41,816 nt of DNA from a virus: positions 1 to 41,816 of the IMG/VR virus record IMGVR_UViG_3300033145_001097; one strand, 5' to 3'. The notes under the pieces are model-generated. The model saw only the letters and a program-made list of their open reading frames with translations. It did no database searches and had not been told where the DNA came from. Position 1 is the stretch's first letter; each line of letters begins with the position of its first letter. Below are positions 8,911-37,807 of this stretch, in pieces. The position numbers and the translations under genes were made by a program.

Positions 8911-9201
8911 CTAACGTTTCCTCGGCCCTGCTTGCCCTGCTTGCCCTGCTTGCCCTGAGCTTGTCGAAGGGAGCCCTGTCGTACCCTGAGCCTGTCGAAG
9001 GGTCGAAGGGTCAAGCCCTCGATGTCCGGCCCGCCACTCGTCTATCCCCCACGCCGCAAAAAACAACCCCAGCAGCGCCGGTACGCCGACACGCGGAAAA
9101 GCGATTATCGCCCATATCAGCACAATGCCCCCAATCACCAGCGCGTTGAAAATGACCGCCATGATCCAGCACCCAACGCCCTCCCACAACTCCCTCAACA
9201 T
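8911..9201 (-). CDS. Small two-helix membrane protein with a repeat-encoded tail
   Basis: The first 55 residues contain two hydrophobic helices (IMAVIFNALVIGGIVLIWAI and VGVPALLGLFFAAWGI), compatible with a small holin-like or virion membrane protein. The last 35 residues are not protein-like: DPSTLRQAQGTT and three GQA units are translations of family A repeats and a short tandem (about 8932-9010). The repeat insertions have therefore extended or replaced the original C-terminus. GGGGAG precedes the ATG. Confidence 0.6.
   Translation of the reverse strand: MLRELWEGVGCWIMAVIFNALVIGGIVLIWAIIAFPRVGVPALLGLFFAAWGIDEWRAGHRGLDPSTLRQAQGTTGLPSTSSGQAGQAGQAGPRKR
8932..9010. repeat. Family A repeat cluster (1:1 and 2:2 nested units) plus short tandem
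   Basis: Three tandem tgccctgct-like units (about 8932-8952) are followed by a simple CCCTGAGCTTGTCGAAGGG (8953-8971). After this comes a nested copy with a shortened left half (8974-8983), core (8984-9002) and extra right half TCGAAGGG (9003-9010). Left and right half-units balance 2:2. All of it is read through by the 96-residue membrane protein. Confidence 0.9.
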
Positions 9202-12475: not shown

Positions 12476-13555
12476 TTAAACATTCCAACTCGCCATCACC
12501 CACAACACCGCCGGAATCATCACCCGCGTCTCCCGCGCCCTGGCCAGCGTCCACGCCGCCCCCACCATCGCCAGCGCTGGCGCCATCACAACCACCTGGG
12601 CGATTGGCGTAGACAATCGCCATCCTATCTGCGCCAGCAGATAGGCAATCACCCCCCCGGTCGCCAGCAAACTCATCGCCATCCCCGCGTCCCCCCCGAC
12701 TCGCCCTGAGCCTGTCGTACCCTGAGCGTGTCGAAGGGTCGAAGGGTCCCACGCCCCCACCAGATCCCGCCAATTCCGCCGCGCCATCCACCGCTCGCAG
12801 TACAGCGCCGCCGGTCCCTGAATCCGCCGCACAGCCCAGCGCGCCGCCGGCCCCACCATCCCCGCCGCGATCAGCGCCGCGCCCTGAGCTTGTCGTACCC
12901 TGAGCCTGTCGTACCCTGAGCCTGTCGAAGGGTCGAAGGGTCGAAGGGCCGCCCCTGGGACCGCCGCTCCGTGCGCAGAGCCCCAGCTCGGCCCCCCTCC
13001 TTGCGCCCCCGGCTCCGCCGCTCCCCATATCAGTATCGCCGCAACCACTGGCGCCAGCATCACCGTCTCACGGCTCAACCCCCACACCAGCGCTCCCAGC
13101 GCCGCGATCACCACCCCATACCAACCGCCCGGCCCCTGAGCCTGTCGAAGGGCCGTCCCCAACACCACCAGCCCCAGCCCCAGCGCCTCCGCGTACTGAT
13201 CCCAATAATCGAACTCCAACGTCAGCGCAAACACCAGCCCCACCGCCAGCGCGCCGGCAGGCCCCAGTACCATCCCCCACACCGCCAGCGCCCCCACGAT
13301 CAGCGCCGCCTTCACCGCCTGGTACACCGCAGGACCCACCCACACGTCCCGCCTCCTCACCTGCGTCGCCGCCCACCCAATCAGCCACAGCAGCCACGGA
13401 ACCAACACCCGGTACCGCATCGGCGCCAGATTCGCCTTATTCAGCGTCCGCCCCACAGCCCCGTACCCGTTCCATTCGCTGCCCTGATTCCACCTGGTCA
13501 CGCGCCAATCCAGCAGCGCCACCCCCAACCCCACCGCAATCGCGATCCACGTCAC
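12476..13555 (-). CDS. Polytopic membrane protein, possibly GT-C-type, with repeat insertions
   Basis: The 359-residue protein has about eight hydrophobic helices. The first part (RYRVLVPWLLWLIG, FDYWDQYAEALGLGLVVLG, LSRETVMLAPVVAAI) resembles polytopic membrane proteins of the GT-C glycosyltransferase type, which use lipid-linked sugars, but I cannot see a proven catalytic motif. Four repeat insertions lie in loops: LRQAQG, a family B plus 3:3 family A block encoding RPFDPSTGSGYDRLRVRQAQ, and a 2:2 block encoding DPSTLRHAQGTTGSG. GTG at 13555 lies one base after the preceding stop; the longer frame to 13606 overlaps that gene and is less likely. Confidence 0.6.
   Translation of the reverse strand: MTWIAIAVGLGVALLDWRVTRWNQGSEWNGYGAVGRTLNKANLAPMRYRVLVPWLLWLIGWAATQVRRRDVWVGPAVYQAVKAALIVGALAVWGMVLGPAGALAVGLVFALTLEFDYWDQYAEALGLGLVVLGTALRQAQGPGGWYGVVIAALGALVWGLSRETVMLAPVVAAILIWGAAEPGAQGGGPSWGSAHGAAVPGAALRPFDPSTGSGYDRLRVRQAQGAALIAAGMVGPAARWAVRRIQGPAALYCERWMARRNWRDLVGAWDPSTLRHAQGTTGSGRVGGDAGMAMSLLATGGVIAYLLAQIGWRLSTPIAQVVVMAPALAMVGAAWTLARARETRVMIPAVLWVMASWNV
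12704..12746. repeat. Family A nested repeat, 2:2
   Basis: One 16-bp left half, one 19-bp core (with one G for C change) and one 8-bp right half, 43 bp in all. It is read in frame in the polytopic membrane protein. Confidence 0.9.
12882..12948. repeat. Family A nested repeat, 3:3
   Basis: Two 16-bp left halves, one 19-bp core and two 8-bp right halves, 67 bp in all. It is exactly 24 bp longer than the 2:2 copy at 12704 and stays in frame in the same gene. Confidence 0.92.
12952..12999. repeat. Family B repeat
   Basis: CCCTGGGACCGCCGCTCC head followed by a GAGCCCCAGCTCGGC hairpin half. It lies in frame next to the 3:3 family A copy, in a loop of the membrane protein. Confidence 0.8.
13135..13155. 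repeat. Family A simple repeat, 1:1
   Basis: A single core CCCTGAGCCTGTCGAAGGG. It encodes LRQAQG in the membrane protein. Confidence 0.9.
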
Positions 13556-13556
13556 C

Positions 13557-13907
13557 TCACTGCGCCCCCCGAATCTTCCGCACCGCCGCCTTCCCAATCC
13601 CCGCAATCGCCAGCAGCTCCCGATCCGTCTGCAGCATCGCCGTCCCCAGCGTGTAGATCCCCGCCGCCGCCAGGGTGGCCAGCTGGGCGCTCGACAACGT
13701 CACACCCGGCCACATCAACTCGCGGTCCTCACGCCCAACCGCCGACCCTTTCGCAGCTCCCTCACCCTCGGGTGCGGCCTCCACCCGCAGCACCACCTCC
13801 TGATACATCAGCGGCGCCAGCTGCTGCCGCAGCCCCACGTGCCCGCCCTCCGCCCTCAGAATCTCCAACTGGCCAAATGAATCGATCAACTGCCCCCGAA
13901 ACTCCAT
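13557..13907 (-). CDS. Small protein with C-terminal helix-hairpin-helix-like region
   Basis: The 116-residue product starts MEFRGQLIDSFGQLEILRAEGG and ends with LSSAQLATLAAAGIYTLG... and a LLAIAGIGKAAVRKIRG motif. The last two resemble the helix-hairpin-helix fold of the RNA polymerase alpha C-terminal domain and related DNA-binding modules. The ATG at 13907 is chosen over the GTG just before it because GGAGG is 9 bp upstream. The gene sits between a glycosyltransferase and a membrane protein in the late operon, so a DNA-binding role is not obvious from context. Confidence 0.6.
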   Translation of the reverse strand: MEFRGQLIDSFGQLEILRAEGGHVGLRQQLAPLMYQEVVLRVEAAPEGEGAAKGSAVGREDRELMWPGVTLSSAQLATLAAAGIYTLGTAMLQTDRELLAIAGIGKAAVRKIRGAQ

Positions 13908-13990: not shown

Positions 13991-14027
13991 CCCTGTCGTA
14001 CCCTGAGCCTGTCGAAGGGTCGAAACC
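13991..14027. repeat. Family A nested repeat, decayed 2:2
   Basis: A shortened left half (13991-14000, missing the same 6 bases as the copy at 8974), a core (14001-14019) and a decayed right half TCGAAACC. It lies between genes, unlike most copies. Confidence 0.85.
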
Positions 14028-14038
14028 CCAAGGTTCCC

Positions 14039-14929
14039 TCACGTCTCGATCACCCGCTCGAACGGGTACACCGACTGGTATGCGACAAACGCCTCCGGCC
14101 CGATTCCCCCGCTGTCCCCCCACATATGCTTCACGATCACGCTCCGATCGATCCACAACTGAAACCCCAGCTTCCGCGCCCGCTGGAAAAACAGGAAGTC
14201 CTCACCCTTCTTCACCTGATCCCGCCGGAACCACGGCCCCCCGTAAAGCTCGCGCTCCCGCGCTGCCCTGCGCCTGCCGAAAAGCCCACGCTTGCCCGCG
14301 TACTCGTGCTCGATCGCCTCGAACACCCGCCGGTGCACCAGCAAGAACGCCCCGCCCGTCGCATCCGCCCGCACCATCGCATCCTCCGGCGCCGGATCCA
14401 GCACAGTCGGACACTCCGCCATCGCCTCCGGGTGCGCCTCCAACCACTGCCGCGTCTCCTCCACCTGAATCCGCAGGAACTCGTGGCCGTGCACCCGCCG
14501 TGTCACGTCCCGAAAAATGCTCGGAACCGGCGGCACGTAGCGCGTAAAACACAGCGCCCCCACCATGTCCACACTTGCGCCCCCTGAGCTTGTCGTACCC
14601 TGAGCCTGTCGTACCCTGAGCCTGTCGTACCCTGAGCCTGTCGAAGGGTCGAAGGGTCGAAGGGTCGAAGGGGCCGTCACCCGCTCCGCCAACCGCTTCA
14701 GACTGTCCGGGTGATACTGCATATCCGCGTCGATCTGCAGCAACCACTCCGCCCCCTGCTCCAGCATCGCCCGCACCAGGAAGTTCCGCGCCACGTCCAC
14801 CGGCATCCCCGACGCGCGCTGCCAAAGGAAACCCTCCTTCGGCTTCACCAGCGCCAGCAAACTATCCACCGCGTAGCCCGGCAGATCCCCCACGTGCGGC
14901 GCGCCGATCATAAACCGGTACTCACCCAT
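14039..14929 (-). CDS. GT-A-type glycosyltransferase (family 2-like) carrying a repeat insertion
   Basis: The 296-residue protein has MIGAPHVGDLPGYAVDSL, then EWLLQIDADMQYHPDSL with the DxD motif at 67-69, which binds the metal and nucleotide-sugar. Later, ATGGAFLLVHRRVFEAI and GEDFLFFQRARKLG match the acceptor-side motifs of phage GT2-like proteins. Residues about 87-115 (APSTLRPFDPSTGSGYDRLR and on) come from a 91-bp 4:4 family A repeat inserted just after the DxD helix. The motifs after the insert are intact, so the enzyme may still work with an extra loop. It probably sugar-modifies virion or host surface; the substrate is unknown. GGAGAG precedes the ATG. Confidence 0.78.
   Translation of the reverse strand: MGEYRFMIGAPHVGDLPGYAVDSLLALVKPKEGFLWQRASGMPVDVARNFLVRAMLEQGAEWLLQIDADMQYHPDSLKRLAERVTAPSTLRPFDPSTGSGYDRLRVRQAQGTTSSGGASVDMVGALCFTRYVPPVPSIFRDVTRRVHGHEFLRIQVEETRQWLEAHPEAMAECPTVLDPAPEDAMVRADATGGAFLLVHRRVFEAIEHEYAGKRGLFGRRRAARERELYGGPWFRRDQVKKGEDFLFFQRARKLGFQLWIDRSVIVKHMWGDSGGIGPEAFVAYQSVYPFERVIET
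14582..14672. repeat. Family A nested repeat, 4:4 (largest copy)
   Basis: Three 16-bp left halves, one 19-bp core and three 8-bp right halves, 91 bp in all, with perfect periodicity. It lies in frame in the glycosyltransferase gene. Confidence 0.95.
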
Positions 14930-15467: not shown

Positions 15468-16442
15468 CTAGGTCCACGCCGACTGCGCAGCCAGATTGTA
15501 CATATGCGCCACGCACCACTTGCCCTTCGGAGCCAGGCCTACGACCCAGTCGATCCGGGCTCGCTTCGACGGCTTGTCTTCCAGTTCGTGCTTCGGCCCG
15601 CCGACCCAGTACGCCGCAAGCTGGTTCAGTTGGATCCCGATCAGCTCGTCGTCCCCAAACTTCGCCGCGTAGATACTGGTCGTGTCGCTCCCGCCGTCGC
15701 CCGGATCCTCAGTGTCAGTGATCACCTCCGTGCTCTGGTCCCGCAGCAGCCCCATATCGATGAACTTCGCGTTGTCGAAGATGAACACGTTGCGCCCGAA
15801 CTGGTCCTTCGTGGTATCCAGCAGCCCCGACCGTCGCAGCACCGATTGCACGCCCAGCCTGGTGCCCAGGTTCATGAAAAACGCGTCTGCCCCGCCCACG
15901 TACTCGTTCAATTTGTGCAAATGATCGATGAACTTGTTCGTGTTGGCCGTGCTCGCCGTCGGGTCAAATGGGGTCCCCGACGTCCCGATCGCCCACTTCT
16001 GTCGGCTGTCCATCTGATCCACCAGATAGTCCAGCCCGTAAAACCCATCCGCGTCCTTCGTCGGACTGCCGTTAATGAAGTAGTCGTTGAACGTGCTCGC
16101 CACCGCCTGCGCCTTCATCTTCAGTTGCGTGGTCTTCGGATCCTCGAGCCAGTTGCTCACCAGATCGTAGATATTGTCGAAGTCCACGTCGCCGCCCAGC
16201 GGCTTCACCGCCCACTCGGCCTGCTCCGTCTTCCCGCCGCCCGGCGTGTATCCCGCGTTGATCTTGCGGAATGCCGCCGTCGGCAGCGTCTTCGCCCGCG
16301 CCATTGCCACCGTCAAACTCTTCACCGTCTGAAACGGCAAAAGCTCCAAAATCTTTGCCTGTCGCAGCAGCAGCATCGCGACCCCCTTCTGCAAGGGATC
16401 CGTCATCTGCTTCGCTGCATCACTCAATGTGATTGCCGCCAT
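15468..16442 (-). CDS. Major capsid protein (HK97-like fold expected)
   Basis: The 324-residue protein has an N-arm-like helix (LSDAAKQMTDPLQKGVAMLL), a long E-loop-like stretch (INAGYTPGGGKTEQAEWAV), and P-domain-like segments (DIYDLVSNWLEDPKTTQ-type helix, then KAQAVASTFNDYFINGS). Near the C-terminus, DLLIGIQLNQLAAYWVGG-type strands and WVVGLAPKGKWCVAHMYN match phage major capsid proteins of the HK97 lineage. It follows the scaffold gene, has the best ribosome site of the operon (GAGGAGG) and no repeat insertions. The length is usual for the family. Confidence 0.85.
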   Translation of the reverse strand: MAAITLSDAAKQMTDPLQKGVAMLLLRQAKILELLPFQTVKSLTVAMARAKTLPTAAFRKINAGYTPGGGKTEQAEWAVKPLGGDVDFDNIYDLVSNWLEDPKTTQLKMKAQAVASTFNDYFINGSPTKDADGFYGLDYLVDQMDSRQKWAIGTSGTPFDPTASTANTNKFIDHLHKLNEYVGGADAFFMNLGTRLGVQSVLRRSGLLDTTKDQFGRNVFIFDNAKFIDMGLLRDQSTEVITDTEDPGDGGSDTTSIYAAKFGDDELIGIQLNQLAAYWVGGPKHELEDKPSKRARIDWVVGLAPKGKWCVAHMYNLAAQSAWT

Positions 16443-16472: not shown

Positions 16473-17312
16473 TCATGCGCCGCCCCCAGATCCTCCGAAC
16501 GCCATCGCCAGCAGATCGCCTGGGTCTGTTACGTCCTCGATCGGGTTGGCCGATCCTGCCCCGCCCGTTGCTGTCGAGACCGGCGTCACTCCCGCCTGCT
16601 CCAGCGCCTGGTTCTGCGCCGTCCGCACCGCTGCATCCTGCGCGCGCTTCCGCTCGGCCTCCAGCGCCGCCTTCTGCTCCTCTGCAACCGCCTTCACGCT
16701 TGCGCGTAGCCGCTCCAGATTCTGCAGCGTCGGATTCCCGTCCCCCCAATCCAACCCTGGCGTCTCTGCTGTCAAGCCGTACGCCTCCAACAGCGTCTCA
16801 CCCAGCGTCCGGACCGTCTGCCCAACCTCTGCCTGCTGTGTCTGTCGTGCAATCTCCGCCTGCTGCCGCTCGTACTGCTCCTGCCAGTACGCCGCTGCCT
16901 CCTCCGGATCCGCGTTCGCCAACCGCAACTGCGCCAGCTCGGCCTGCTGCCGAGTCTGTGCCTCCTGCATCTCCCGCAGTCTGCGCTCGTATTGCGCCTG
17001 CATCGCTGCCTCGCGCCTGTCGCGATTTGCCTGCCACTTCCGGAACTCCGCCAGGTTCGTGAGGTCAATACCCTCAGCCTGAGCCTGCGCCTGCTCCTCA
17101 GACACACCAGCCCCTCCGGCTATCGTCGCATCACTGGCCGCTGCCTGGCCCGCCGCTTGCTGAGCCCCTGCCTGCGCCGCGCCCTGAGCCTTGCTTGCCC
17201 TGAGCCTGTCGAAGAGTCGAAGGGCCGCTCCCTGAGCCGATGTGCTCCCTCGCCCACCGGCCTGCGCGCCCTCAGCCCCGCCATTCTGCGTCAACTCCGT
17301 TTGCTCTTTCAT
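16473..17312 (-). CDS. Capsid scaffolding protein
   Basis: The 279-residue protein is low in complexity, rich in Gln, Ala and Glu, and dominated by a long coiled coil (about 80-220: RREAAMQAQYERRLREMQEA and on). It is acidic overall, sits directly before the major capsid gene, and has the length and composition of phage scaffolds. Residues about 29-45 (LRLFDRLRASKAQG) come from a 2:2 family A repeat near the flexible N-terminus. No protease is visible nearby, so how the scaffold leaves the procapsid is unclear. Confidence 0.75.
   Translation of the reverse strand: MKEQTELTQNGGAEGAQAGGRGSTSAQGAALRLFDRLRASKAQGAAQAGAQQAAGQAAASDATIAGGAGVSEEQAQAQAEGIDLTNLAEFRKWQANRDRREAAMQAQYERRLREMQEAQTRQQAELAQLRLANADPEEAAAYWQEQYERQQAEIARQTQQAEVGQTVRTLGETLLEAYGLTAETPGLDWGDGNPTLQNLERLRASVKAVAEEQKAALEAERKRAQDAAVRTAQNQALEQAGVTPVSTATGGAGSANPIEDVTDPGDLLAMAFGGSGGGA
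17182..17224. repeat. Family A nested repeat, 2:2 variant
   Basis: Left half (17182-17197, with TTGCTTG), core (17198-17216, with one G to A change) and right half (17217-17224). The size of 43 bp equals the 2:2 copy at 12704. It is in frame in the scaffold gene. Confidence 0.85.
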
Positions 17313-17823: not shown

Positions 17824-20800
17824 TCACTTCCAACCCGTCTGATTCTTCACCACCCACGGCACTCCCTTCGGCCGGTATCGCTCGAAGCGCAGCGCGCTCC
17901 CCCACGGATCCGGCCGCTCCAGCGTCATCTTCGCCGGATACTTCGTCCCATAGAATCTCTGGCCACCTCCTCTCGATCCACCCCAGCTTCCTCTCCGATA
18001 ACTCCGCCGCGTGCTCCGTGCGCCGTACCCTGAGCCTGTCGTACCCTGAGCCTGTCGAAGGGTCGAAGCCCCACCCAGGTAGAAATACGCCCAAATCTCG
18101 TGTCCTGGCTCCGCCCCAAACGCATCCCGCATGTCGAAATACGTCCCGATCTCCGGGTGCTCCGCCTTGTAGGCCCTCCGCTCCGCCTGGCTCAGGTCAT
18201 AATACGCCCCCAGCGTCTCGTCTATCCCCGGCAGCGCCCGCTCCGCCTCTGCCGTCCACTCCTCGTTCAGCGCCCGCGCCTCCTGCCAGTCCGCTGGCGT
18301 CAGCCACTCCTCGCTCACGTTCCCTGCCCGCCAGCTCTCCAGCCAGTCCAGAGCCTTCTGATACTGCTCCGTCGTCGCCGTCCCTCGCGTCTCAGCATCC
18401 AACACCAGCTGCACCAACGGATACTCCCGCGCGCCTCGGCTCATCCGCCCCGGCGGCAGCCTCTCGTCCAGCGCCCGCCAGAAGCCGTCCTGCGCCTCCG
18501 CCAGCGCCCGTTCCTCCGGCGGCTTCCGCAGATCCGCAGCCTCCCCCACACCCGGGAACTCCACCCCCTGATACTCCTGCTGTAGCTCCTGCGGCGTCCA
18601 GCCGCGGTCCGGATACGCCTTCAGCACCGCGTCGATCAGCGCCGTCCCGCTCGTCGGTCCCGCGCCCTCGACGTACCGCTCGTATGCCTCCCCGCTGTCC
18701 ATCCCCCGCTCCAGCGCCGCCCCGTACGCGTCAAAGGTCTTACCATATACCTCATCGCCCCAAACGCGCTGTAGCGCCTCCAGAGGCGTGTCGTTCCGCC
18801 GCCAGTACCGCTCCACGTCCCCCTTCCCGATCCCTGCCACCCACGCGTCCACCTGCTCCGGCCTCGTACCCTGAGCCTGTCGAAGGGCGCCTAGCCGCAC
18901 GTCCCCCGCCATCCGCACCGGCGCGTCCGCAAAGAACGCCCGCACCGCCTCCTCGTACTGCGCCGCGCCCTCCTCGCCCTCAAACTCCGCCCGCCTCGGC
19001 ATCGCCGCGCTCACCGCCGCCAACACCTCGTCCCGCCGGATCCGCTCCGCTTCTACCGGGCTCGCCCCCCACACGCTCCGCGGCCGGTACTCCTCCGCCG
19101 CCCCCCCTGGGATCGCCGAGCCCCAGCTCGGCCTCCCTGCTTCCACCCCTGGCTCCGCTCCTTGCCCCCCTGGGACCGCCGCTCCTTGCGCCCCCGCCTG
19201 TACACTATCCAGCGCCTGATACCTCTCCTGCTCCAGCGCCGCCGCCCCCGCGCTATCCCACGGCCGCTGCCTCAGCAACTCCGCCTTCCGCTCGTCATAC
19301 TCCGCGTTGATCCGCTCCCGCTCCGCCCCCTCCGTCCGCGACTGCAGCGCCTCCCCTGGCGTCCACCCGCTGTACTCCCCCGCGTCGATCGCGCTGCTCG
19401 TCATCCTCCGCGTCAGCGCCTCCGGATGTTCCTTCTGCCACGCCAGCATCGCCTCGCGGCTGCCCGTCCCCGTCAGCGGCGAATACATCGTCCCACGTTC
19501 CTGTCCCTGCAGCTCCAACTGGCCCTGCTCTCCCGTCGGCAGCACCCGCAGCGTCTGCCCCGCCATAAAACTCCCCGCCGTCGTCACGCCCCGCTCCAGG
19601 CCCGCCCGCTGCGTCGCCTCCTGCAGCGCCATCTGCGCCTCGGCCACTTGCTCCGGCGTCCAGCCCTGCTCCACCGCGATCCGCCTCAGGTTCTCCGACA
19701 CCTGCGGTACGGTGTTCTCTCCCCCTCGCTCCCAGCCCTCCGCCTCCGCCTGCGCCAACTCCCCCGTCTCCACCAGCCGCTGCAGCTCCTGCGCCAGCAG
19801 CGCCGCCTCCGTCGATATCGTCCCGACCGCCGCCATATCGCTGATCATCCGCGATCGTCTGTACCCCGTGTAGGGTTCCGCCTCCGGCGCACCCAGTCCG
19901 CGGCGCAGCCCCGCCTCGATGTTCATCCCGCCAGGCGGGATCACGTTCGTGCCAATCCCCGCCTCTCGCAGCCCCGCCGTCGCCGCCTGCGCCATCCCCG
20001 TCTGCGGCAGGATGTACCCAATGTCCCCCTTGTCGCCCGCCCACCCGAAATACCGCACGCCCCACTCGATGTACCCATACGGCCGCAGCCCCAGCTTGCT
20101 CGACACCCGCAGCAGCGCGTCCAGCGCGTTCTCCGCATCCGCCGGATCGTCCCCGTAGCCCTGCCCCACGATCTGCGCCCACGGGAAGAAGCCGCGGCTT
20201 GGGTTGTAGAACAGCACCTTGCCCATCCACTCCGGCAGTACGCCCCCGGCCGGTATCCCCACGCTCCCCTCGAACCGGCTGCGGCGCCCCGCTTCCTCGT
20301 TCGCCCGCTCCATCCCCCGCTGATACCGCACGTAAGCCGCCACCGCCCCCGGCCTCTCCATCGCTCGCAGCGCGAAATTCCGGCCGCTCCGCGTCTTCCA
20401 AAACGTGTAGGGGTAGATAAGATTCGCCCACACATCCCCGCGCCGCTGCTTCGTGTAATCCAGCAGCGCGAAATCCGCCCCGTCCCGCGCCATCTCCACC
20501 CCGATCCCCTTCGTCGTCGTCCAGTCCCGCGCCAGGTCGCCGTCCACCCACTCGCTCAACCGCCGCGCCGTCAGCGGGTCTCCCTTGCCCCCGGCCCTTC
20601 GTAGCGTCGCTGCGCGCTCCAACTCGTCCGCCGTCCACACGCGCCCCCCTGGGACCGCCGCTCCTTGCCCCCCTGGGATCGCCGAGCCCCAGCTCGGCTT
20701 CCCTCCTTCCGCCGCTCCCCCGAACCGCTCCCCCCACTTCCTCGCATCCGCCTTCATCCCCTCCCGGATCTGCTCCAGCGCCCGGAGTTGCTCCCCCTCC

Positions 20801-23800: not shown

Positions 23801-26385
23801 TTCGGATCGTCCAGGTAGCGCGCCACGTTCACCAGCGGCTCGCCGTTGTCCAGCTTCCCCACCACCGCCCGGAACTCGTCCAGGTTCCGCCCTCGCCGCA
23901 GCGCCCCCTCCAGCTCCTGGACCGCGTCCGGCCCGTACGCCCGCGCCACCTGCGCCGCCAGGTCGCCCGGCAGCTTCGGCCGCCACAGGCGCTCCAGTGA
24001 GTCCGTCAGCACGCTGTAGAATGCCCGCTTGTACCGGCCCTCCTCCTGTCTGCTGATCCACCGCCCGGCCGTCTCGCTCACCCGTCCCAGCGCCCCGGGC
24101 AGCTTCGAGCCCTGCGCCATCACCTGCTGACCGCCCGTCGCCCCCGCGATCCGCCGCGTCGTCGGCCCGATCCGTTTGAGGAAATCGTCGATCTCCCCCA
24201 CCCCGTCCAGCGACAGAACCCCGTCCGTCGCCATCGTCGTCAGATCGCTCGTCGCGTTCGCGATCGCATACCCCGGCGTCCGCAGATAGAACTCACTCAT
24301 CGTGTGCCGGAACCCGTCCGCAAACCGCCGGTACCCACTCTTCGCCGCAGCCGCCTCGGCCGCCGTCGTCGGGACCCCCTCCAGCGTCTTCGCTGCATCC
24401 AACATCGCGTCGCTCAGCTCACTCACGAACTCCCACCGGTCCCACTTCCTCAGGCTCTGCATATCATCCAGCTTCCCCAGAACCTCCCGAAATACCGGCT
24501 GCGCCTCCCGCGCCATCTGGCTGGCTGGCACACTCCCCAGCTCGTCCACCAGCCGCCCCGGATTGTCCGCCAGCGCCCGCACCAACGCCTTCGCCTCCTC
24601 CGGCCCGTCCGCGTGCTCGATAATCAGGCTCCCCACCTGGTAGGCGCCGTTCGCCGATTGCTGCGCCTTCGCCATCGGCGTCAGTTCGAACGGGTTAATC
24701 CGCTTCCACAAGCGCCCGATCCAACTCCTGCCGCCCTGTGCAGGCAAATCCTGGCCGTGCTGCAGCGCCTCGCTCACGCCAGCCGCCACCGCCCGCCGCG
24801 CCGCCCCCTGAGCCTGTCGAAGGGCAGCCGCGTCGTCCACCCTGGTCGCCACCCTGGCCACCGCCCGCCCCTCTCGCGCCCGCTCCAGCTTTCCCGCCCA
24901 CACCGGCAAGTCGAACAAATTCAGCGGATCCAAGCCGCTCTGGAACAGAATCTCGTTCCACAGGTCGCTGCCGCCCGGGATCCGCCCCGTCTCCAGGACC
25001 GCCTGCGCCGCGTCCTCCGCCGCCTCCGGCCCGTCCGCGGCCCGCACGCCCGCCACGTAGCTGTTGAACGCCTCCTTCTCCTCCTGCGTTGGCTCCCGCG
25101 TGTTGATGCTCATCCCGCCGGTCACACTCTCGATCGGCTCCCCCGCCATCAGCCGCGGCAGCATCCCTCTCTGCGCCTCGTAGCTGCTGTAGCCGCCCGC
25201 CACCGCCAACTTTGCCAGCCCCATCTCCGTCTCCGGCCCCGCGCCGTACTGCTGCTCCGCCAGCTCTTGCATGCTCGGGGCCCCCAGTCGTCGCGCCGTC
25301 AGTACGCCCTGCGCGGCGATATAGCGCATCACCAGGCCCGGCTTGTTCAGGTCCAAATAATCTTTCTCAGACGGCGGTCCACCTCCCCCGCGTACCAGTT
25401 GCGCCTCCGCGTTCAAATACCGCGCCACCTGCTCCGCCACCTTCCGATCCTCCGCCGTCAGATACTTCTCCGGATGCGTCAGCGGCGGCAGCCCGTGGAT
25501 CCCCCCCAAGCGCTGGCCGACGCTTCTGGCCAGCGTCTCCTCCACCACCGACGTCGGCAGTTGCAGCGCCTCCAGCGCCGTCTTGCCAGCCGCCGCCGCC
25601 GCCCTGCTCGGCTTCCGCAACCCCGGCAATTGCCCCACGTCGTGCAGCGCAGCCCCCACCAGCGGCATGGGCGCCCTCATCCCCGCCCCTAGCTCCCGGG
25701 CCGCCTGCGACGCCGGGCCCACCACCCACCGCTGCAGCGGCGTCGGCGTCTCTGGCGCCCGGGCCCACGGCTGCGGTGGACGCATCCCCCTAATCCAGCT
25801 TGGCGGCCCTGGGACCGCCGAGCCCCAGCTCGGCTCCCCTCCTTGCCTCGCCGCATTCTCCTGCATCTGCCCCAGCGCGCCCGGTAATTGCCACGGCTCC
25901 GCTGGCGCCTCGACCCCTGCCCAAGCCTCCCCGATGCGCCGCCTGGCGCCGGCCCACGCCTGAGAGGGCGGCCCCGCTGTCACCGGCGGCCCGCCTCCCC
26001 CGCGTACCGGCCCCCCTGGGACCCCTACTTGCCCCGTGCCCTGAGCCTGTCGAAGGGGCCCTCCTTGCCCCCCTGGGAGCGCCGAGCCCCAGCTCGGCTC
26101 CGCTCCTTCCCCCACCACCTGCTGCACACCCTGCGGCCCGATCCACGGCTGCACACTCGGCCCCGCCTGGGGCTCCGGCTCGGGCTCCCGCCACCACTCG
26201 CGCGACACCGTCGGCAGCGCTGGCTCAAACGGCCGCGTCTTCTCTCCGCCCGCCTGCAGGCGCGTGGGCAGGCCAGGCCGTTTCACTTTGCGCCCGACGC
26301 TCGGCTCGACCCTGGTCACCCACGGCTTCACCTTCTGGGTGATCGGCCGCTTCCTCTTCTCAGGCCGTCTCTTTCGTTTCGTCAT
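17824..26385 (-). CDS. Giant internal/ejection-type virion protein (2853 residues)
   Basis: One open frame of 8.56 kb encodes about 2853 residues. The N-terminus is very basic (MTKRKRRPEKRKRP), then Pro-rich repeat-laden sequence to about 230. Helical regions follow (LMRYIAAQG-, SDLWNEILFQSGLDPLNLFD-type near 470), a TPGYAIANATSDLTTMATDG segment (about 705), long coiled coils, and a WANLIYPYTFWKTRSGRNFA segment (about 1990) with WMGKVLFYNPSRGFFPW soon after. Such segments occur in large polyvalent or internal phage proteins that travel with the DNA. No RNA polymerase, lysozyme or protease motif was found. About ten in-frame repeat clusters lie in linkers. ATG at 26385 follows GGGAGG; the frame to 26424 is repeat-derived. 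Confidence 0.7.
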   Translation of the reverse strand: MTKRKRRPEKRKRPITQKVKPWVTRVEPSVGRKVKRPGLPTRLQAGGEKTRPFEPALPTVSREWWREPEPEPQAGPSVQPWIGPQGVQQVVGEGAEPSWGSALPGGQGGPLRQAQGTGQVGVPGGPVRGGGGPPVTAGPPSQAWAGARRRIGEAWAGVEAPAEPWQLPGALGQMQENAARQGGEPSWGSAVPGPPSWIRGMRPPQPWARAPETPTPLQRWVVGPASQAARELGAGMRAPMPLVGAALHDVGQLPGLRKPSRAAAAAGKTALEALQLPTSVVEETLARSVGQRLGGIHGLPPLTHPEKYLTAEDRKVAEQVARYLNAEAQLVRGGGGPPSEKDYLDLNKPGLVMRYIAAQGVLTARRLGAPSMQELAEQQYGAGPETEMGLAKLAVAGGYSSYEAQRGMLPRLMAGEPIESVTGGMSINTREPTQEEKEAFNSYVAGVRAADGPEAAEDAAQAVLETGRIPGGSDLWNEILFQSGLDPLNLFDLPVWAGKLERAREGRAVARVATRVDDAAALRQAQGAARRAVAAGVSEALQHGQDLPAQGGRSWIGRLWKRINPFELTPMAKAQQSANGAYQVGSLIIEHADGPEEAKALVRALADNPGRLVDELGSVPASQMAREAQPVFREVLGKLDDMQSLRKWDRWEFVSELSDAMLDAAKTLEGVPTTAAEAAAAKSGYRRFADGFRHTMSEFYLRTPGYAIANATSDLTTMATDGVLSLDGVGEIDDFLKRIGPTTRRIAGATGGQQVMAQGSKLPGALGRVSETAGRWISRQEEGRYKRAFYSVLTDSLERLWRPKLPGDLAAQVARAYGPDAVQELEGALRRGRNLDEFRAVVGKLDNGEPLVNVARYLDDPNVLSVGMRVELEPKLEQALVGLPAPMQAGGRREAELVLGGPRGARSGAELGLGARSGGPRGAEVEARIDDVIDGARETVRQSTGKAFAGDPTPPGRMVWSNNEAAQDLAEEQGMLEALGRAAGVSEEEAAQQTQTLADVLAPGEREMRHAEEQMLATVRAGSDDIGQTRAEAAVIQAARADTGMESMRARAAADELRARAWAEVKRLGAEGKQSGVVWEGYFPQISELRLGEQETNIRRLQAAGEQLKRVQAGETFEAVMGRPAQSVMDGAVDSLRSLARDLGTRQAKLVRLGVEEFGDFDKTLDAMRLTVDLPEAETWRLVKMNPTRDTLDVVTSTQQAVDRMGRGAAEEAAAIRSRFLAGKINREKYGELVGAVWGDGFFKQGAQAWDLTRGQVAALPMSPGAQKRALQAMGWPVEKIEQLTSGQMSSVLRANVRWDAMLDAPEMPLAEAVQGSMMYVAEQAGLDITRAANWTPAEWESLGMQAQVLAKEAGDRASTARRMGAAAVEEAAQQAARRPQTVQAGMDIVYPSSVDDIARVMGMQPQQMRPDDWARVADFAHERGAQAWDLGDEIARKANAWGERGGVTAWGQVGGQGREVRWGGHTRKWVGERITELKGESREQAKALAQWLLEQSGYEPRELERLNLQQRTRLLQEVAQGDVLVKSSGAPVTIGPVAAQRRYEIINGASDQVRRTAASWGGQPEEAMGYRWLELAEEATRRTGRVETPIDVGQIEQTMEEAAKAGRQVWAYPVGGAAPVPLSQTELRLWAGPDGELVDWKGVQRLAAQDGEVLWTKPAAEAVNAEYVAAGPGLYDSRGYPVMRPTEGRAERRGPSTQHAVIERMQGMVPGAEQRGLGKASVGFEQRQAWLAERYVDVQDMAKARGQLMKSGTRTGRGALVVPTGVVKAQTRKEMGLYTLDLLDEERRVLRSYSFDNWGEAKTARTAARQVIKDGRQGQAHLVSTDWGAWRVEDVLGRDKAAAARGGYAEAPTMADMAQVMEGEQLRALEQIREGMKADARKWGERFGGAAEGGKPSWGSAIPGGQGAAVPGGRVWTADELERAATLRRAGGKGDPLTARRLSEWVDGDLARDWTTTKGIGVEMARDGADFALLDYTKQRRGDVWANLIYPYTFWKTRSGRNFALRAMERPGAVAAYVRYQRGMERANEEAGRRSRFEGSVGIPAGGVLPEWMGKVLFYNPSRGFFPWAQIVGQGYGDDPADAENALDALLRVSSKLGLRPYGYIEWGVRYFGWAGDKGDIGYILPQTGMAQAATAGLREAGIGTNVIPPGGMNIEAGLRRGLGAPEAEPYTGYRRSRMISDMAAVGTISTEAALLAQELQRLVETGELAQAEAEGWERGGENTVPQVSENLRRIAVEQGWTPEQVAEAQMALQEATQRAGLERGVTTAGSFMAGQTLRVLPTGEQGQLELQGQERGTMYSPLTGTGSREAMLAWQKEHPEALTRRMTSSAIDAGEYSGWTPGEALQSRTEGAERERINAEYDERKAELLRQRPWDSAGAAALEQERYQALDSVQAGAQGAAVPGGQGAEPGVEAGRPSWGSAIPGGAAEEYRPRSVWGASPVEAERIRRDEVLAAVSAAMPRRAEFEGEEGAAQYEEAVRAFFADAPVRMAGDVRLGALRQAQGTRPEQVDAWVAGIGKGDVERYWRRNDTPLEALQRVWGDEVYGKTFDAYGAALERGMDSGEAYERYVEGAGPTSGTALIDAVLKAYPDRGWTPQELQQEYQGVEFPGVGEAADLRKPPEERALAEAQDGFWRALDERLPPGRMSRGAREYPLVQLVLDAETRGTATTEQYQKALDWLESWRAGNVSEEWLTPADWQEARALNEEWTAEAERALPGIDETLGAYYDLSQAERRAYKAEHPEIGTYFDMRDAFGAEPGHEIWAYFYLGGASTLRQAQGTTGSGYGARSTRRSYRRGSWGGSRGGGQRFYGTKYPAKMTLERPDPWGSALRFERYRPKGVPWVVKNQTGWK
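18028..18070. repeat. Family A nested repeat, 2:2 (right half decayed)
   Basis: Left half (18028-18043), core (18044-18062) and TCGAAGCC (18063-18070). It lies near the C-terminus of the giant protein, about residue 2775-2786. Confidence 0.85.
18868..18888. repeat. Family A simple repeat, 1:1
   Basis: A single core preceded by TA, in frame in the giant gene (about residue 2502), encoding LRQAQG. Confidence 0.85.
19104..19193. repeat. Two family B repeats
   Basis: A full hairpin copy (19104-19137) and a head-only copy (19165-19193), in frame in the giant gene near residues 2400-2427, encoding GRPSWGSAIPGG-like peptides. Confidence 0.85.
20646..20706. repeat. Two adjacent family B repeats
   Basis: A head-only copy followed by a full hairpin copy, in frame in the giant gene near residues 1895-1913. 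Confidence 0.85.
23620..23743. repeat. Cluster of two family B repeats and one family C repeat
   Basis: Two B units with GCTCGGC arms, then a C unit at about 23715-23743. They form a linker of about 40 residues (885-922) in the giant protein, all in one frame. Confidence 0.85.
24805..24823. repeat. Family A simple repeat, 1:1
   Basis: A single CCCTGAGCCTGTCGAAGGG core in the giant gene, encoding LRQAQG near residue 523. Confidence 0.88.
25806..25841. repeat. Family B repeat
   Basis: A full hairpin copy in frame in the giant gene near residue 188. Confidence 0.88.
26039..26104. repeat. Family A core next to a family B repeat
   Basis: A 1:1 family A core (26039-26057) and a full family B hairpin (26070-26104) lie side by side in the N-terminal Pro-rich part of the giant protein (residues about 94-116). 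Confidence 0.88.
26247..26274. repeat. Family C repeat
   Basis: CGCCCGCCTGCAGGCGCGTGGGCAGGCC-type unit near residue 42 of the giant protein, again read as LPTRLQAGG. Confidence 0.85.
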
Positions 26386-27286: not shown

Positions 27287-27670
27287 TCACCCGGCCTCCG
27301 TTCGCACCCTGCCTGCTCCGTGCGCCGCGCCCTGACTTGTGCTGAGCTGTGTCGAAGCAGCCTGTCCTGCCCCGAGCCTGTCGTACCCTGAGCCTGTCGA
27401 AGGGTCGGAGGGTCGAAGGGCCGCCCACAGCTTCTCCATCTGCTCCTCGTACCGCGCCGCCTCCTCGATCACGTGCGGCCCGTCCCCCACCCGCTGCGCC
27501 GTATAGCCCAAGATCGCCCGCGCGTTCCCCCGCATCGGCTCATACTGCGCCAGCAGCTCGTCGTCCGTCAGTCGCCCGCCGCCGCTCGCCACCTCGATCG
27601 TCTTGTTGAGCACGTCCTCGGCCCCCACCAGCGCCCCGTGCACCGCCGCCCTGAATCCCAGATCACCCAT
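27287..27670 (-). CDS. Small late protein with a repeat-encoded tail
   Basis: The first 85 residues (LGFRAAVHGALVGAEDVLNK, GRLTDDELLAQYEPMRGNA, EEAARYEEQMEKLWAAL) are helical and look like a genuine small phage protein. The last 40 residues come from a composite of family A (3:3) and family E repeats (SDPSTGSGYDRLGAGQAAST and on). It starts 2 bp after the portal stop and ends one base before the next ATG. Function unknown; a head-completion or portal-associated role would fit the position. Confidence 0.6.
   Translation of the reverse strand: MGDLGFRAAVHGALVGAEDVLNKTIEVASGGGRLTDDELLAQYEPMRGNARAILGYTAQRVGDGPHVIEEAARYEEQMEKLWAALRPSDPSTGSGYDRLGAGQAASTQLSTSQGAAHGAGRVRTEAG
27330..27420. repeat. 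Composite of family E and nested family A repeats
   Basis: A family E unit (27330-27360, CCTGACTTGTGCTGAGCTGT start) is joined to a left half (27370-27385), core (27386-27404) and two right halves (27405-27420). The outer left half is decayed or merged with family E. Family E occurs once more, at about 39971. Confidence 0.85.
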
Positions 27671-27672
27671 CG

Positions 27673-29586
27673 CTATCCCCCAGGCCCCCGCCCCATGTCC
27701 GGCGGCGCCTGTCCCTGCATCGCCATCATCGCCTGCAATCCGCCCGGCCCGCCCTGGCCCACCATCTCCGGCGTCGCTTGCGGCGGAACTACACCCGGCG
27801 GCATCCCCTGCATCGGCCCCCCACCCGTGCCCTGAGCCTGTCGCAGGGCCGACTCACCCTGCGGCCCGCCCACCGGCGCCTCCTGCTCCATCGCAGCCGC
27901 CATCTCCGGACTGAACCGCGCCAATATCAGCTTCGCCAGTTGCTGCGTCGTCGCGCTCTCCGTGATGATCCGCCCCAGCAGGATCCGCTGTATCTCGTCC
28001 ATCGGGCTCTGAATCTCCAGGCCCTTCATCTGCTGCACCCGGTCCAGCATCGTCTCCAGACTCAAGTGCCCACGATCCACCAGCTGGCTCAGCTGCATCA
28101 CCTCGCCCGCCTCGTCCTTCGGCAGGCTCGCGCTCAGCTTCACGCCGTTGCGGTAATACCCCCGGATCTCCGCCGGAGGCAGTCTCGTCTCGAACGCAGC
28201 TCCGCTCCGCTCCCCGTACACCGTCCAGCCGTCCACCGGCGCATACTGCTCCGTCAGCCTCAAGATCAGCTCATTCACCCGCTCGTACGCCCACTCCCGG
28301 CTCGTCTGTTCCGCGGCCACTTTCATCAGCACCGGATTCGTCAGCGCGCTCAAGGCCAGCCCTGAGATATCTCCCACGTACCGGCCCCGCATCGCCTCCG
28401 GATACGTCGCATCACTGATGTAGTTCTGCAGCACCGACACCTGTTGCAGCAGTTGCGGCGGCACCGTCTGCTGTGCCAGCGGCTTCAATGTCTTCGTCCC
28501 GTGCACCAAATTGACTGCGCCCGGCCGCTGATCGATCTTCTTCAACGTCGCGTCGTCCGTCACCCAGGCCCCCGCGCTCAGCGTCTGCAGCAGCCTCTGC
28601 TCGTACGCCACCGCCTCGGCCTCCGCCGCCAGGAGCCCCCTCGTGCCCTTCTGCTTGTTGCCGCCCGCCACCGCAAAGAGCACGCTCAATGCCCCGTCCT
28701 CGTCCTCCAGCAGCGTCTCGATGTTCGCATACCGCACGAACGGCAGCATCCCATACCCTGGCATCCGCACCGGCTTCTTGACAAACTCCCCGTCCACCAC
28801 CACGCAATTCGTCACCGCCTGCCGGTACCGCGTCGGCTGCGTCTCGCTCCCCATCTCACGGCGCACCTGGCGCCGCGCCGCCTGGAACAACCGGCCCACC
28901 ACACCCAGCGGTTCGGCCTTTGCCTCCGGGGCCTCTGCCTCGGTATCCTCCTCCACGTCCACGCGCCAATAGTCGATGTACTCCACCTTCTCGTCACGCC
29001 ACCTGGCGAGCTCCTTTGCCTCCGTCGGCCGCCCCTTCAGCTTACCCCATTCCTGCTCGATCTCACCCCGGCGCCGCTTGAACGCGTGCAGCACCTCGCT
29101 GTCCTCATACGCCACACCTGTCGGGTTCGGATACACGTTCCGCGGATCCAGCGCCTGCACCGTGAGCGGCACCTTGCGCCACATCGCTCGCGGATCGTAC
29201 ACCACCCGCAGCACCCCCATGCCCATACAGCTCGCTGCAAACTCCGCCAGCTTCGCGCTCCGCACGAAGTGGATCAGGTTCCAGACACCGTACAGGTAGT
29301 TCTCCCGCATCTGTGCCTGATCCTGATCGACTGACGTCAGATCGCTGGCTGGCACACTGATGACCGGCGGGCGTGTCAGCAGCAGCGCCCGGCTCATCTC
29401 CACCGTGTTATGCGCTGTGGGCACTGCCAGCCGGTAGTCCTCGCTGTCGCCCTGCCCCTCGCGCCACAGGTCCAGCTTGTACAGATCCACGTACTCGTCC
29501 ATCCGCTCGTTTCGCTTCGCCCACCTGGCCTTGAGCTTCCGGTATCGATCCTGCACGTATTCCACCTTGATCTCTCGTGGCTTCAT
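27673..29586 (-). CDS. Portal protein
   Basis: The 637-residue protein has the pattern of phage portals: N-terminal helices (RYRKLKARWAKRNERMDEYV), NTVEMSRALLLTRPP, RVVYDPRAMWRKVPLTVQALDPRNVYPNP-like wing sequence, and an alpha-helical crown region (SRPEVMQ-like LSQLVDRGHLSLETMLDRVQ). It follows the large terminase by one base. The portal is the dodecamer through which DNA is packaged and ejected. The C-terminal 60 residues are Gly/Pro/Met-rich and include a family A copy (SALRQAQGTGG). Length is usual for short-tailed phages with extended C-termini. Confidence 0.85.
   Translation of the reverse strand: MKPREIKVEYVQDRYRKLKARWAKRNERMDEYVDLYKLDLWREGQGDSEDYRLAVPTAHNTVEMSRALLLTRPPVISVPASDLTSVDQDQAQMRENYLYGVWNLIHFVRSAKLAEFAASCMGMGVLRVVYDPRAMWRKVPLTVQALDPRNVYPNPTGVAYEDSEVLHAFKRRRGEIEQEWGKLKGRPTEAKELARWRDEKVEYIDYWRVDVEEDTEAEAPEAKAEPLGVVGRLFQAARRQVRREMGSETQPTRYRQAVTNCVVVDGEFVKKPVRMPGYGMLPFVRYANIETLLEDEDGALSVLFAVAGGNKQKGTRGLLAAEAEAVAYEQRLLQTLSAGAWVTDDATLKKIDQRPGAVNLVHGTKTLKPLAQQTVPPQLLQQVSVLQNYISDATYPEAMRGRYVGDISGLALSALTNPVLMKVAAEQTSREWAYERVNELILRLTEQYAPVDGWTVYGERSGAAFETRLPPAEIRGYYRNGVKLSASLPKDEAGEVMQLSQLVDRGHLSLETMLDRVQQMKGLEIQSPMDEIQRILLGRIITESATTQQLAKLILARFSPEMAAAMEQEAPVGGPQGESALRQAQGTGGGPMQGMPPGVVPPQATPEMVGQGGPGGLQAMMAMQGQAPPDMGRGPGG
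27829..27848. repeat. Family A simple repeat, variant 1:1
   Basis: CCCTGAGCCTGTCGCAGGG, one base changed, in the flexible portal C-terminus. Confidence 0.85.
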
Positions 29587-29587
29587 A

Positions 29588-31015
29588 TCATCCCCTCATC
29601 GCTACCGGCGCGCGCCCCGGGATCGGCTCCCGTTCCGCCGTCTCCACCATCCCATACCGCCACACAATAATGTCCCGCAGCGCGTCCATTGCATCGTTGT
29701 TCTTGTCCTCAGGCGTCTCACTGATTGCCTCGCCCTGCCGGTTTGTCCGGCGCTTGTACGCCTTGAACTCACTCTGCGTCCCCGGGCATTTGTCCTCGTC
29801 CACGTAGTACCGCGCCACGCCTGTCGCCGGATCCCGCAGCATCGTCCGCACCCGGCGCGCCCCGTCCAGGATTCGCCCCGCGTCGAACATCTCGAAATAA
29901 AACTCCTTCGGATCCCCAGGCTCTGCGCCGATCTCCCCCTCCCACGCGTCCGCCACGTTCTCCGTGTACCCCGGCTGATGCTGTCGCGTCTCCTGCCCGC
30001 CCACCGCGCACGCCACGTCCCGCCACCACTCACGCTCGCGGCACATCTGGATCACATCCTCGTGCCCGAGGAAGTTCTCCCAGACCTCGTCGATCTGGTG
30101 GACCACCTCCATCGTCACGACCGACCCACTCGCGAGCCTGAAGCTCTTGTCCACAAACTGCAGCGCCAACACCGCGTAATGACTCGGGTAATACCCAATA
30201 TCCACCGCTAGATAGACGGGGACGCCTGGCGCATATGGCACGTCCCGCACGTGCATCCTCAACCCCGTGTCCGGATCCACCACCCGGAACTCCGGATACA
30301 TCCGCGCTGGGCTCGGCACCAGCTTCGCCGCCACCCGCCGCGCGAACTCATCCTCCGTGTAGATCTTCTCCAGCCGCTTGATCTCCGCGTCCTCCCGGCC
30401 TCCCGGGAAGATCTCCTTATTCGCCCACGCCGGAAAACTGTACCGCACCCCGCCGAACACGTTATCGCCTCGGAAGTCCTCGAACAACTCCGCGTACCAG
30501 CCGAAGTTGTCCCACAGCGTGCCCGACATAATGACCGCGCCTCGCGTCTCTGCCACCCGGCCTCGGGCCGCCAGGAAGCTGTCGTATCCGATCAGGCCCG
30601 CCTCCACGATCGCCACCACGTCGTAAGCCCGCCCCCTGCCCGTCAATTGCCGCGGGCTCTTGTGCACCGACACCGTCTCGATCTCGCATCCCCAGCGCGT
30701 CGTGATCGTGCGCTTGCCCTGCCTGGGCATACTGACCTGACGCACTGCCCCCAACTCGTCCAGGCCCTCCAGGATATACTCCATCTCCGCGCGCGTCTCG
30801 TCATATTCATCGGCGACCACCGCAATCCGCTTGCACCATGGCGCCCGCGCCACGATCTCCTCCGCCGTCCAGAAGCTCTTACCGCCCCGCTCTGCCCCTG
30901 CCACCAGGATCACCCGCTCGGTGCACTGGTGCGCCCTGAGCTGATCCGCGTGCGGCTCATACCCCAGCAGCTTGAACGTCACCTGCTTCTGCTCCCACGT
31001 TGGCCACCTGCCCAC
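29588..31015 (-). CDS. terL: Large terminase subunit
   Basis: The 475-residue protein has a Walker A GAERGGKS (40-47), a Walker B-like YDVVAIVEAG (131-140; E138 probably catalytic), and an SGTLWDN coupling motif (164-170). The C-terminal RNase H-like nuclease domain has LAVDIGYYPS (D272) and a final DKNNDAMDALR acidic helix. It packages DNA into the procapsid with ATP and cuts the concatemer. GTG start with GGGGGAG 5-6 bp upstream; the gene overlaps the small terminase by 59 bp and ends one base before the portal. No repeat insertions. Confidence 0.92.
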   Translation of the reverse strand: MGRWPTWEQKQVTFKLLGYEPHADQLRAHQCTERVILVAGAERGGKSFWTAEEIVARAPWCKRIAVVADEYDETRAEMEYILEGLDELGAVRQVSMPRQGKRTITTRWGCEIETVSVHKSPRQLTGRGRAYDVVAIVEAGLIGYDSFLAARGRVAETRGAVIMSGTLWDNFGWYAELFEDFRGDNVFGGVRYSFPAWANKEIFPGGREDAEIKRLEKIYTEDEFARRVAAKLVPSPARMYPEFRVVDPDTGLRMHVRDVPYAPGVPVYLAVDIGYYPSHYAVLALQFVDKSFRLASGSVVTMEVVHQIDEVWENFLGHEDVIQMCREREWWRDVACAVGGQETRQHQPGYTENVADAWEGEIGAEPGDPKEFYFEMFDAGRILDGARRVRTMLRDPATGVARYYVDEDKCPGTQSEFKAYKRRTNRQGEAISETPEDKNNDAMDALRDIIVWRYGMVETAEREPIPGRAPVAMRG

Positions 31016-32420: not shown

Positions 32421-32825
32421 TCATGTCTTCCCCTTGAGCTTCCCAGTCTGTGCAGCCGCCCTGACCCAGAAGATCGCCTGCATCACGCGCGTGACCGTTC
32501 TCTCCTCGTGCTTATGATCTGCTCCCTCCGCCTGCATCTCGTTCAGCAGTATGTGCACACACTCGTGGACAAAGCATCTCTCCAGGCGGTAGTCATCGAT
32601 TGTTGCGACTAACTTTAGATTCACCTTGATGTCGGCCGCCAGGTACTCCCATGCACTCCACACCTCAAATACGGCCTCCGTATCATTAGCGCCCTTGAAC
32701 CCGGCGCGCTCTGTGCTATAGACGAGCCGTATCCGATCCCACCACAGCAGCCCCAGCGGCCCGAACCATTTGTCCGCCAGCCGTTGCACCCGCTTCCGCT
32801 GCTTCTTCCTCTTTGTCTTATTCAC
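32421..32825 (-). CDS. Zincin-like metallopeptidase-fold protein
   Basis: The 134-residue protein has FVHECVHILLNEM with HECVH at 87-91, the HExxH zinc motif, followed by a HKHEERT acidic segment (105-110) that could supply the third ligand. The N-terminus is very basic (VNKTKRKKQRKRVQRL). Such small zincins are common in phages; substrate and role are unknown. GTG at 32825 overlaps the stop of the preceding gene (GTGA) and follows GGAGGGG, so the longer frame to 32852 is rejected. It is the last gene of the early operon. Confidence 0.65.
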   Translation of the reverse strand: MNKTKRKKQRKRVQRLADKWFGPLGLLWWDRIRLVYSTERAGFKGANDTEAVFEVWSAWEYLAADIKVNLKLVATIDDYRLERCFVHECVHILLNEMQAEGADHKHEERTVTRVMQAIFWVRAAAQTGKLKGKT

Positions 32826-37795: not shown

Positions 37796-37807
37796 CTCGG
37801 CCACCCC

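Follow-up and report, generated by a model that had tools for sequence, protein, structure and literature searches.

How does a short imperfect palindrome in a phage gene come to be enclosed by its own halves, in equal numbers on either side? The question is raised by positions 14582-14672 of the virus record IMGVR_UViG_3300033145_001097, which we analysed over its whole length of 41,816 bases (the window). The initial annotation had described this 91-bp segment as four left and four right halves, with the core's own pair included, and our parsing agrees with that description. It had also proposed that such stacks grow through 24-bp insertions into the middle of older copies.

Copies of the repeat in the phage

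The record has a 114-bp terminal direct repeat and is that of a temperate tailed phage, with the following genes.

227-1690, integrase
15468-16442, minus strand, major head protein
27673-29586, minus strand, portal
29588-31015, minus strand, terminase
32822-33859, minus strand, DUF5131 gene
36980-37804, minus strand, phosphoadenosine phosphosulfate reductase-like gene, a possible auxiliary sulfur gene

The core of the imperfect palindrome, CCCTGAGCCTGTCGAAGGG, was found at 14 loci, six single and eight composite. All lie on the plus strand, and the minus strand of the record has none.

8953-8971, plus strand, single copy, TT variant, intergenic
8974-9010, plus strand, 2:2 composite, intergenic, outer left half 6 bp shorter (CCTG direct-repeat deletion)
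12704-12746, plus strand, 2:2 composite of 43 bp, in ORF 12476-13606 (minus strand)
12882-12948, plus strand, 3:3 nested composite of 67 bp, in ORF 12476-13606 (minus strand), outermost left half a TT variant
13134-13152, plus strand, single copy, in ORF 12476-13606
13991-14026, plus strand, 2:2 composite, intergenic, same 6 bp lost from the outer left half, outer right half decayed
14582-14672, plus strand, 4:4 nested composite of 91 bp, in frame in the glycosyltransferase-like ORF 14039-14929 (minus strand)
17182-17224, plus strand, 2:2 composite with another inserted tail (GCTTGC), insert still 24 bp, from comparison with L188
18028-18070, plus strand, 2:2 composite, tape measure ORF, outermost right half decayed (GAAGC)
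18869-18887, plus strand, single copy, tape measure ORF, TCGTA directly before it
24806-24824, plus strand, single copy, tape measure ORF, missing from the L099 homologue
26039-26057, plus strand, single copy, tape measure ORF
27358-27420, plus strand, decayed 3:3 composite, in ORF 27287-27670 (minus strand)
27830-27848, plus strand, single copy with one mismatch, portal ORF, missing from the L099 homologue

Every copy in the original list was recovered, and three had been overlooked (8953, 1:1; 27361-27420, decayed 3:3; 27830, 1:1). The copy at 17182 is better read as one with the GCTTGC tail than as a decayed TCGTAC insert, the added length remaining 24 bp.

Counted by left and right halves, the loci comprise six 1:1, five 2:2, two 3:3 and one 4:4. 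Two or three of the 2:2 composites and one of the two 3:3 composites are decayed; when this is allowed for, left and right halves are equal in number in all eight composites. Shuffling the right counts among the 14 copies gave full balance in none of 300,000 shuffles, and shuffling the eight composites alone gave p = 0.006 for balance. The tandem junction GGGTCGTACCC has zero occurrences in the phage record. Eleven of the 14 phage sites lie within ORFs, and the glycosyltransferase-like ORF stays open through the 91-bp copy, with a peptide gain of about 31 residues. The five ORF-internal single copies (13134, 18869, 24806, 26039 and 27830) share one reading phase, ALRQAQG, and stops are absent from all three frames of the strand that is read through them.

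The window also holds three other palindromic families. The second, CTGGGANCGCCGAGCNCCAGCTCGGC, has 12 copies, all on the plus strand (9252, 9314, 14946, 17743, 19107, 20673, 23636, 23678, 25809, 26073, 26408 and 39451), and occurs in four other viral contigs and in 4 of 396 genomes of one Chloroflexota class, that of an Ardenticatenia MAG; a Chloroflexota host is therefore likely, as judged from this shared family. The third, CCGCCTGCANGCNCGTGGGCAGGC, has four plus-strand copies (5564, 23718, 26250 and 27009), and the fourth, a hairpin repeat CTAGAAACCTGCATTCCGATGCAGG, has two copies in tandem (13923 and 13960). The bias to one strand is thus common to the 14 copies of the nested repeat and to the 12, 4 and 2 copies of the other palindromes. 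Insertion into single-stranded DNA would fit this bias; selection would fit it too, because nearly all genes there lie on the opposite strand.

Nests in other genomes and the 24-bp sum

A search for the duplicated right half returned 19 viral loci and 14 of the 396 genomes of one Chloroflexota class. The pattern of an outer left half, a complete inner copy and an outer right half was found in 22 of the 396 genomes, and a reversed-pattern control gave 0. A left-side pattern allowing any 0-10 nt mostly returned units that follow one another head to tail, with a period of some 18-23 bp, which are not nests; L119, L120, L128 and L176 are head-to-tail core arrays with periods of 21, 22 and 24 bp and no nesting. 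Self-nesting is thus broader than one phage, with independent nests in many Chloroflexota-type genomes and in other viral contigs. Across 11 nest-bearing genomes, exact copies of the core number from 8 to 126 per genome.

We parsed the stacks outward from the innermost core, which gave 66 distinct stacks and 76 nested levels from 25 genomes or records, the phage included. Across these levels the left offset (L) lies between 9 and 20 and the right offset (R) between 8 and 16, with a correlation of r = -0.71. L+R equals 24 in 51 of the 76 levels, by partitions of 16+8 (that of the phage), 14+10, 13+11 and 12+12, and equals 25 in 12 more. In most of the latter the outer copy is of the CCTGAGCGAAGTCGAAGG type, which is 1 nt longer, hence the inserted length is again 24. 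A sum of 24 was observed in 67% of levels compared with 26% after permutation of R (p<5e-5). When each genome and partition contributed a single entry, and the phage and G405 were left out, the figures were 46% and 18% (p about 1e-4). The proposed growth by 24-bp insertion inside an older copy is therefore borne out in the relatives, whatever the partition. Deviant lengths are 21 in G314, 23 in a few nests and 15 in six viral contexts. The +15-bp nests (viral contigs L186, L189, L192, L194, L197 and L204) read CCTGAGC + CCTGAGCYTGTCGAAGGG + TCGAAGG, a bare 18-bp palindrome replacing the 3-nt loop.

Individual stacks show how the two sides correspond. L321 is a 4:4 stack of mixed partitions, with L of 12, 12 and 16 against R of 12, 11 and 8 and sums of 24, 23 and 24. 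In the 3:3 stack L251, GTCC...GGAC forms the outer arms and ACCC...GGGT the inner ones; as these differ as pairs, the halves belong together level by level. In L209, L210 and L221 the outer copy has a GCGAA-type loop and the inner copy is of the CCTG type, a difference of subfamily that cannot arise by duplicating one sequence.

Written with a common right end, each insert consists of a 6-nt 5' tail and the 18-nt CCTGAGCYTGTCGAAGGG. The tails are alike inside any one genome but vary from one genome to the next: CGGTGT or CGCTGT in G648, TAGCAC or TGGCAC in G341, GCCTGC in G436 and G636, CGGCGT in G405 and TCGTAC in the phage. Single copies have a conserved 5' flank of about 5 nt in G085 and of 9 nt in G636, the latter signal being due in part to a longer, multicopy composite repeat, and a 3' flank of only 1-2 nt. 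As conservation lies mostly on the 5' side, single and nested copies show the same asymmetric unit.

Insertion points fall after CCTGAG, CCTGAGC, CCTGAGCC or CCTGAGCCTG, which are four loop positions. The repeat is likely to insert preferentially in the loop, the region that our search patterns also favoured. The stem is 4 bp, a GA/GA mismatch and 1 bp; by DNA folding the monomer hairpin has an energy of -0.7 to -1.2 kcal/mol, which shuffled sequences equal, and the nests have z of about -2. The initial annotation had placed the insertion between GTCG and AAGGG with duplication of GTCG. Neither detail carries over to other genomes, where the tailed unit enters the loop region, the alignment ambiguity is about 0-1 nt and no target duplication is seen; we therefore rejected GTCG duplication as a general feature. 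The phage tail happens to be TCGTAC, and hence mimics such a duplication.

Alternative origins of the nests

A link to a REP-associated tyrosine transposase (RAYT) had also been suggested. Of 15 genomes bearing nests or arrays, 12 have Y1 transposase genes; none was found in G663, G357 and G016, of which G663 and G357 bear nests. For 30 of the 36 Y1 matches in the 15 genomes we inspected flanks of up to 1.5 kb, and no clear core copy lay beside any of them. The RAYT linkage was accordingly rejected.

A serious rival for the insertion step, although on balance an unlikely one, is fragment capture, in which hairpin loops are cut (for example by an SbcCD-type nuclease) and repaired with a short fragment from another copy, with no transposase involved. 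The insertions do fall in the loop region, with neither target duplication nor a linked transposase, and the 15-bp class looks like a replacement of the loop by a bare palindrome. However, capture alone predicts neither a constant length of 24 bp nor that single copies remote from any palindrome should share a conserved 5' tail.

We regard it as improbable that most nests go back to a few rare, old insertions, multiplied afterwards when ordinary duplication copied entire composites. Such spread is evident in places. G436 and G342 carry paralogous nests, and G405, a fragmented draft whose contigs end in repeats, has 80 nest matches, with at least 47 copies in one longer dispersed repeat with common flanks (L312, L317, L315 and others) that reads ATACGACCTCGGCTTCGCC...CTACTCAGG...GATGCTCCATGGGTTG. 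Against duplication as the general origin, tails, partitions, outer arms and flanks differ within single genomes (G342, G648 and G341), and the constant sum persists when each genome and partition is entered once.

The copies of the G405 repeat also bear on the predicted differences between empty and filled sites. Its 1:1 copies are CTACTCAGGCGGCGTCCTGAGCCTGTCGAAGGGATGCTCC, and the loop gains 24 bp in 2:2 and 48 bp in 3:3 copies; paralogues thus differ by exactly 24 bp, as had been expected of relatives. Orthologous empty sites for the phage composites were sought in close relatives and none was found. Likewise, glycosyltransferase homologues sought in phage records for an empty site of the 91-bp copy gave none. 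The nested junction TACCCTGAGCCTGTCGTACCC, searched exactly and in shorter forms, matched only this phage in IMG/VR, the 15-mer TGTCGTACCCTGAGC had only chance matches in genome contigs, and BLAST of the repeat region against phages and plasmids gave no useful match. L099, a distant relative of the phage (about 45% identity at the protein level), encodes both a portal and a tape measure, and alignments with it show gaps at the single copies 27830 (portal) and 24806 (tape measure).

Much the same data speak to independent slippage or unequal recombination, by which the 16-bp left and 8-bp right repeats would each grow on their own, with any agreement between them due to chance or shared descent. 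Slippage can occur between direct repeats of 8-16 bp, and unequal stacks do exist: 17 of the 66 parsed stacks are unequal, G342 has paralogues of 3:2 and 2:3, and 19 of the 47 G405 copies (40%) show one-sided 12-bp differences (2:3 in eleven, 1:2 in five, 3:2 in two and 2:1 in one). The equality of halves that had been claimed holds for all phage copies but elsewhere is a tendency, not a rule. Since unequal stacks exist outside the phage, slippage also acts, and in G405 the exact 24-bp steps together with the one-sided differences show that insertion and slippage both do. As the sole cause it is very unlikely and we rejected it, since independent slippage of two unlike repeats does not predict a constant L+R across 16+8, 14+10, 13+11 and 12+12. 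Neither does it explain the level-matched mixed stack L321, the different inner and outer subfamilies of L209 and L221, or the full balance in the phage, and G405 itself has more balanced copies than expected (28 of 47 against 19.5, p 0.004).

An assembly artefact of short-read repeats is scarcely credible and was also rejected: many source genomes are drafts and contigs of G405 end in the repeats, but nests lie inside contigs of more than 1 Mb (G577 and G554) and 216 kb (G085), copies show point differences and decay, and the phage ORF reads in frame through the 91-bp copy.

A probable short mobile repeat and its relation to known elements

Collectively our data demonstrate nesting, a near-constant length, a loop position among the nests found and an asymmetric unit common to single and nested copies. 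We consider it probable that they reflect a very short, REP-like mobile repeat with a unit of about 24 bp, whose insertion sites include the loop region of resident copies of itself. The moving unit would be a lineage-specific 6-nt 5' tail, TCGTAC in the phage, followed by the 18-nt imperfect palindrome. It would enter many sites, which in the phage are often intragenic and keep the reading frame; in the loop region of an older copy it would insert with no duplication of the target. Loop insertion would split the old copy into a left and a right half flanking the new one, such that each round adds 24 bp to a stack and one more half to either flank (16+8 in the phage). Later slippage between direct repeats could unbalance stacks, and stacks could multiply when longer repeats that contain whole composites are copied. 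We infer that a host-supplied enzyme moves the unit as single-stranded DNA.

Insertion without target duplication beside a palindrome would resemble the single-strand insertion of IS200/IS605-type elements. The absence of target duplication, seen outside the phage, is shared with them, whereas their fixed tetra- or pentanucleotide target has no counterpart among the four loop positions and the varied flanks of single copies. Rickettsia palindromic elements are likewise palindromic repeats in frame in protein genes; they differ in length (about 100-150 bp) and we know of no nesting among them.

The sections of the REP literature considered here describe imperfect palindromes of 20-40 bp, present tens to hundreds of times and in part intragenic, with GTAG or CGTC tags, the GTAG REPs having RAYT genes; some REP dimers sit inside other palindromes (PMC3733652, PMC2817692). 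The nested repeat is similar in being dispersed, of high copy number and in the same size range, with a tag or tail on one side. Unlike REPs it has lineage-specific tails (CGGTGT, TAGCAC, GCCTGC, TCGTAC), none of them GTAG or CGTC as a rule, and unlike GTAG REPs it has no RAYT beside any copy among the 30 of 36 Y1 matches inspected. REPs are mainly extragenic, whereas 11 of the 14 phage copies are inside ORFs. REP stems are of 5-13 bp, and the stem of the nested repeat appears weak by DNA folding. Those sections mention no self-nesting in steps of 24 bp (PMC3733652, PMC2817692). IS1397, IS621 and ISPsy8 target REPs and thus also use a palindrome for insertion (PMC1525189), but they are full IS elements of other sequence, whereas here the inserted DNA is the repeat itself. 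The GC clusters of yeast mitochondria are very short palindromic mobile DNA too, flanked by AG or ACT direct repeats; they are organellar and merge with one another, which is not balanced nesting (PMC4478555).

The process had been called undescribed, which is partly right. Mitochondrial and plastid DNA of Volvox carteri contains short hairpin-forming selfish palindromes, often inserted one in another to give larger elements, as is the nested repeat here within its own family; those repeats are organellar, AT-rich in mtDNA, 50 nt on average and unrelated in sequence, and the part of the account drawn on here reports neither a fixed unit length nor paired left and right counts (PMC2670323). The open-access literature yielded neither a bacterial case of self-nesting with a constant step nor a paper on the repeat sequence itself. 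Palindrome-in-palindrome insertion as such is already known.

Little is understood of how REP-like repeats move, and the decay of old insertions makes it difficult to define their unit. Nested copies preserve that unit exactly, since every level adds the same length, split over two sides; L+R = 24 thus tests the size of the moving unit, the insertion point and the order of events without strain pairs. The nests would in this way keep a record, open to counting, of the movement of mobile DNA that is among the smallest kinds known. Single palindromes, and not just paired ones, behave as the unit, and REP-like repeats are seen colonising phage structural genes in frame. More tentatively, and with the odds slightly against it, this may be a gene-free element of fixed 24-bp length, moved in trans, which prefers the hairpin loop of its own copies and so builds ordered nests in Chloroflexota and their phages. 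If that is true, nest depth would count successive insertion events.
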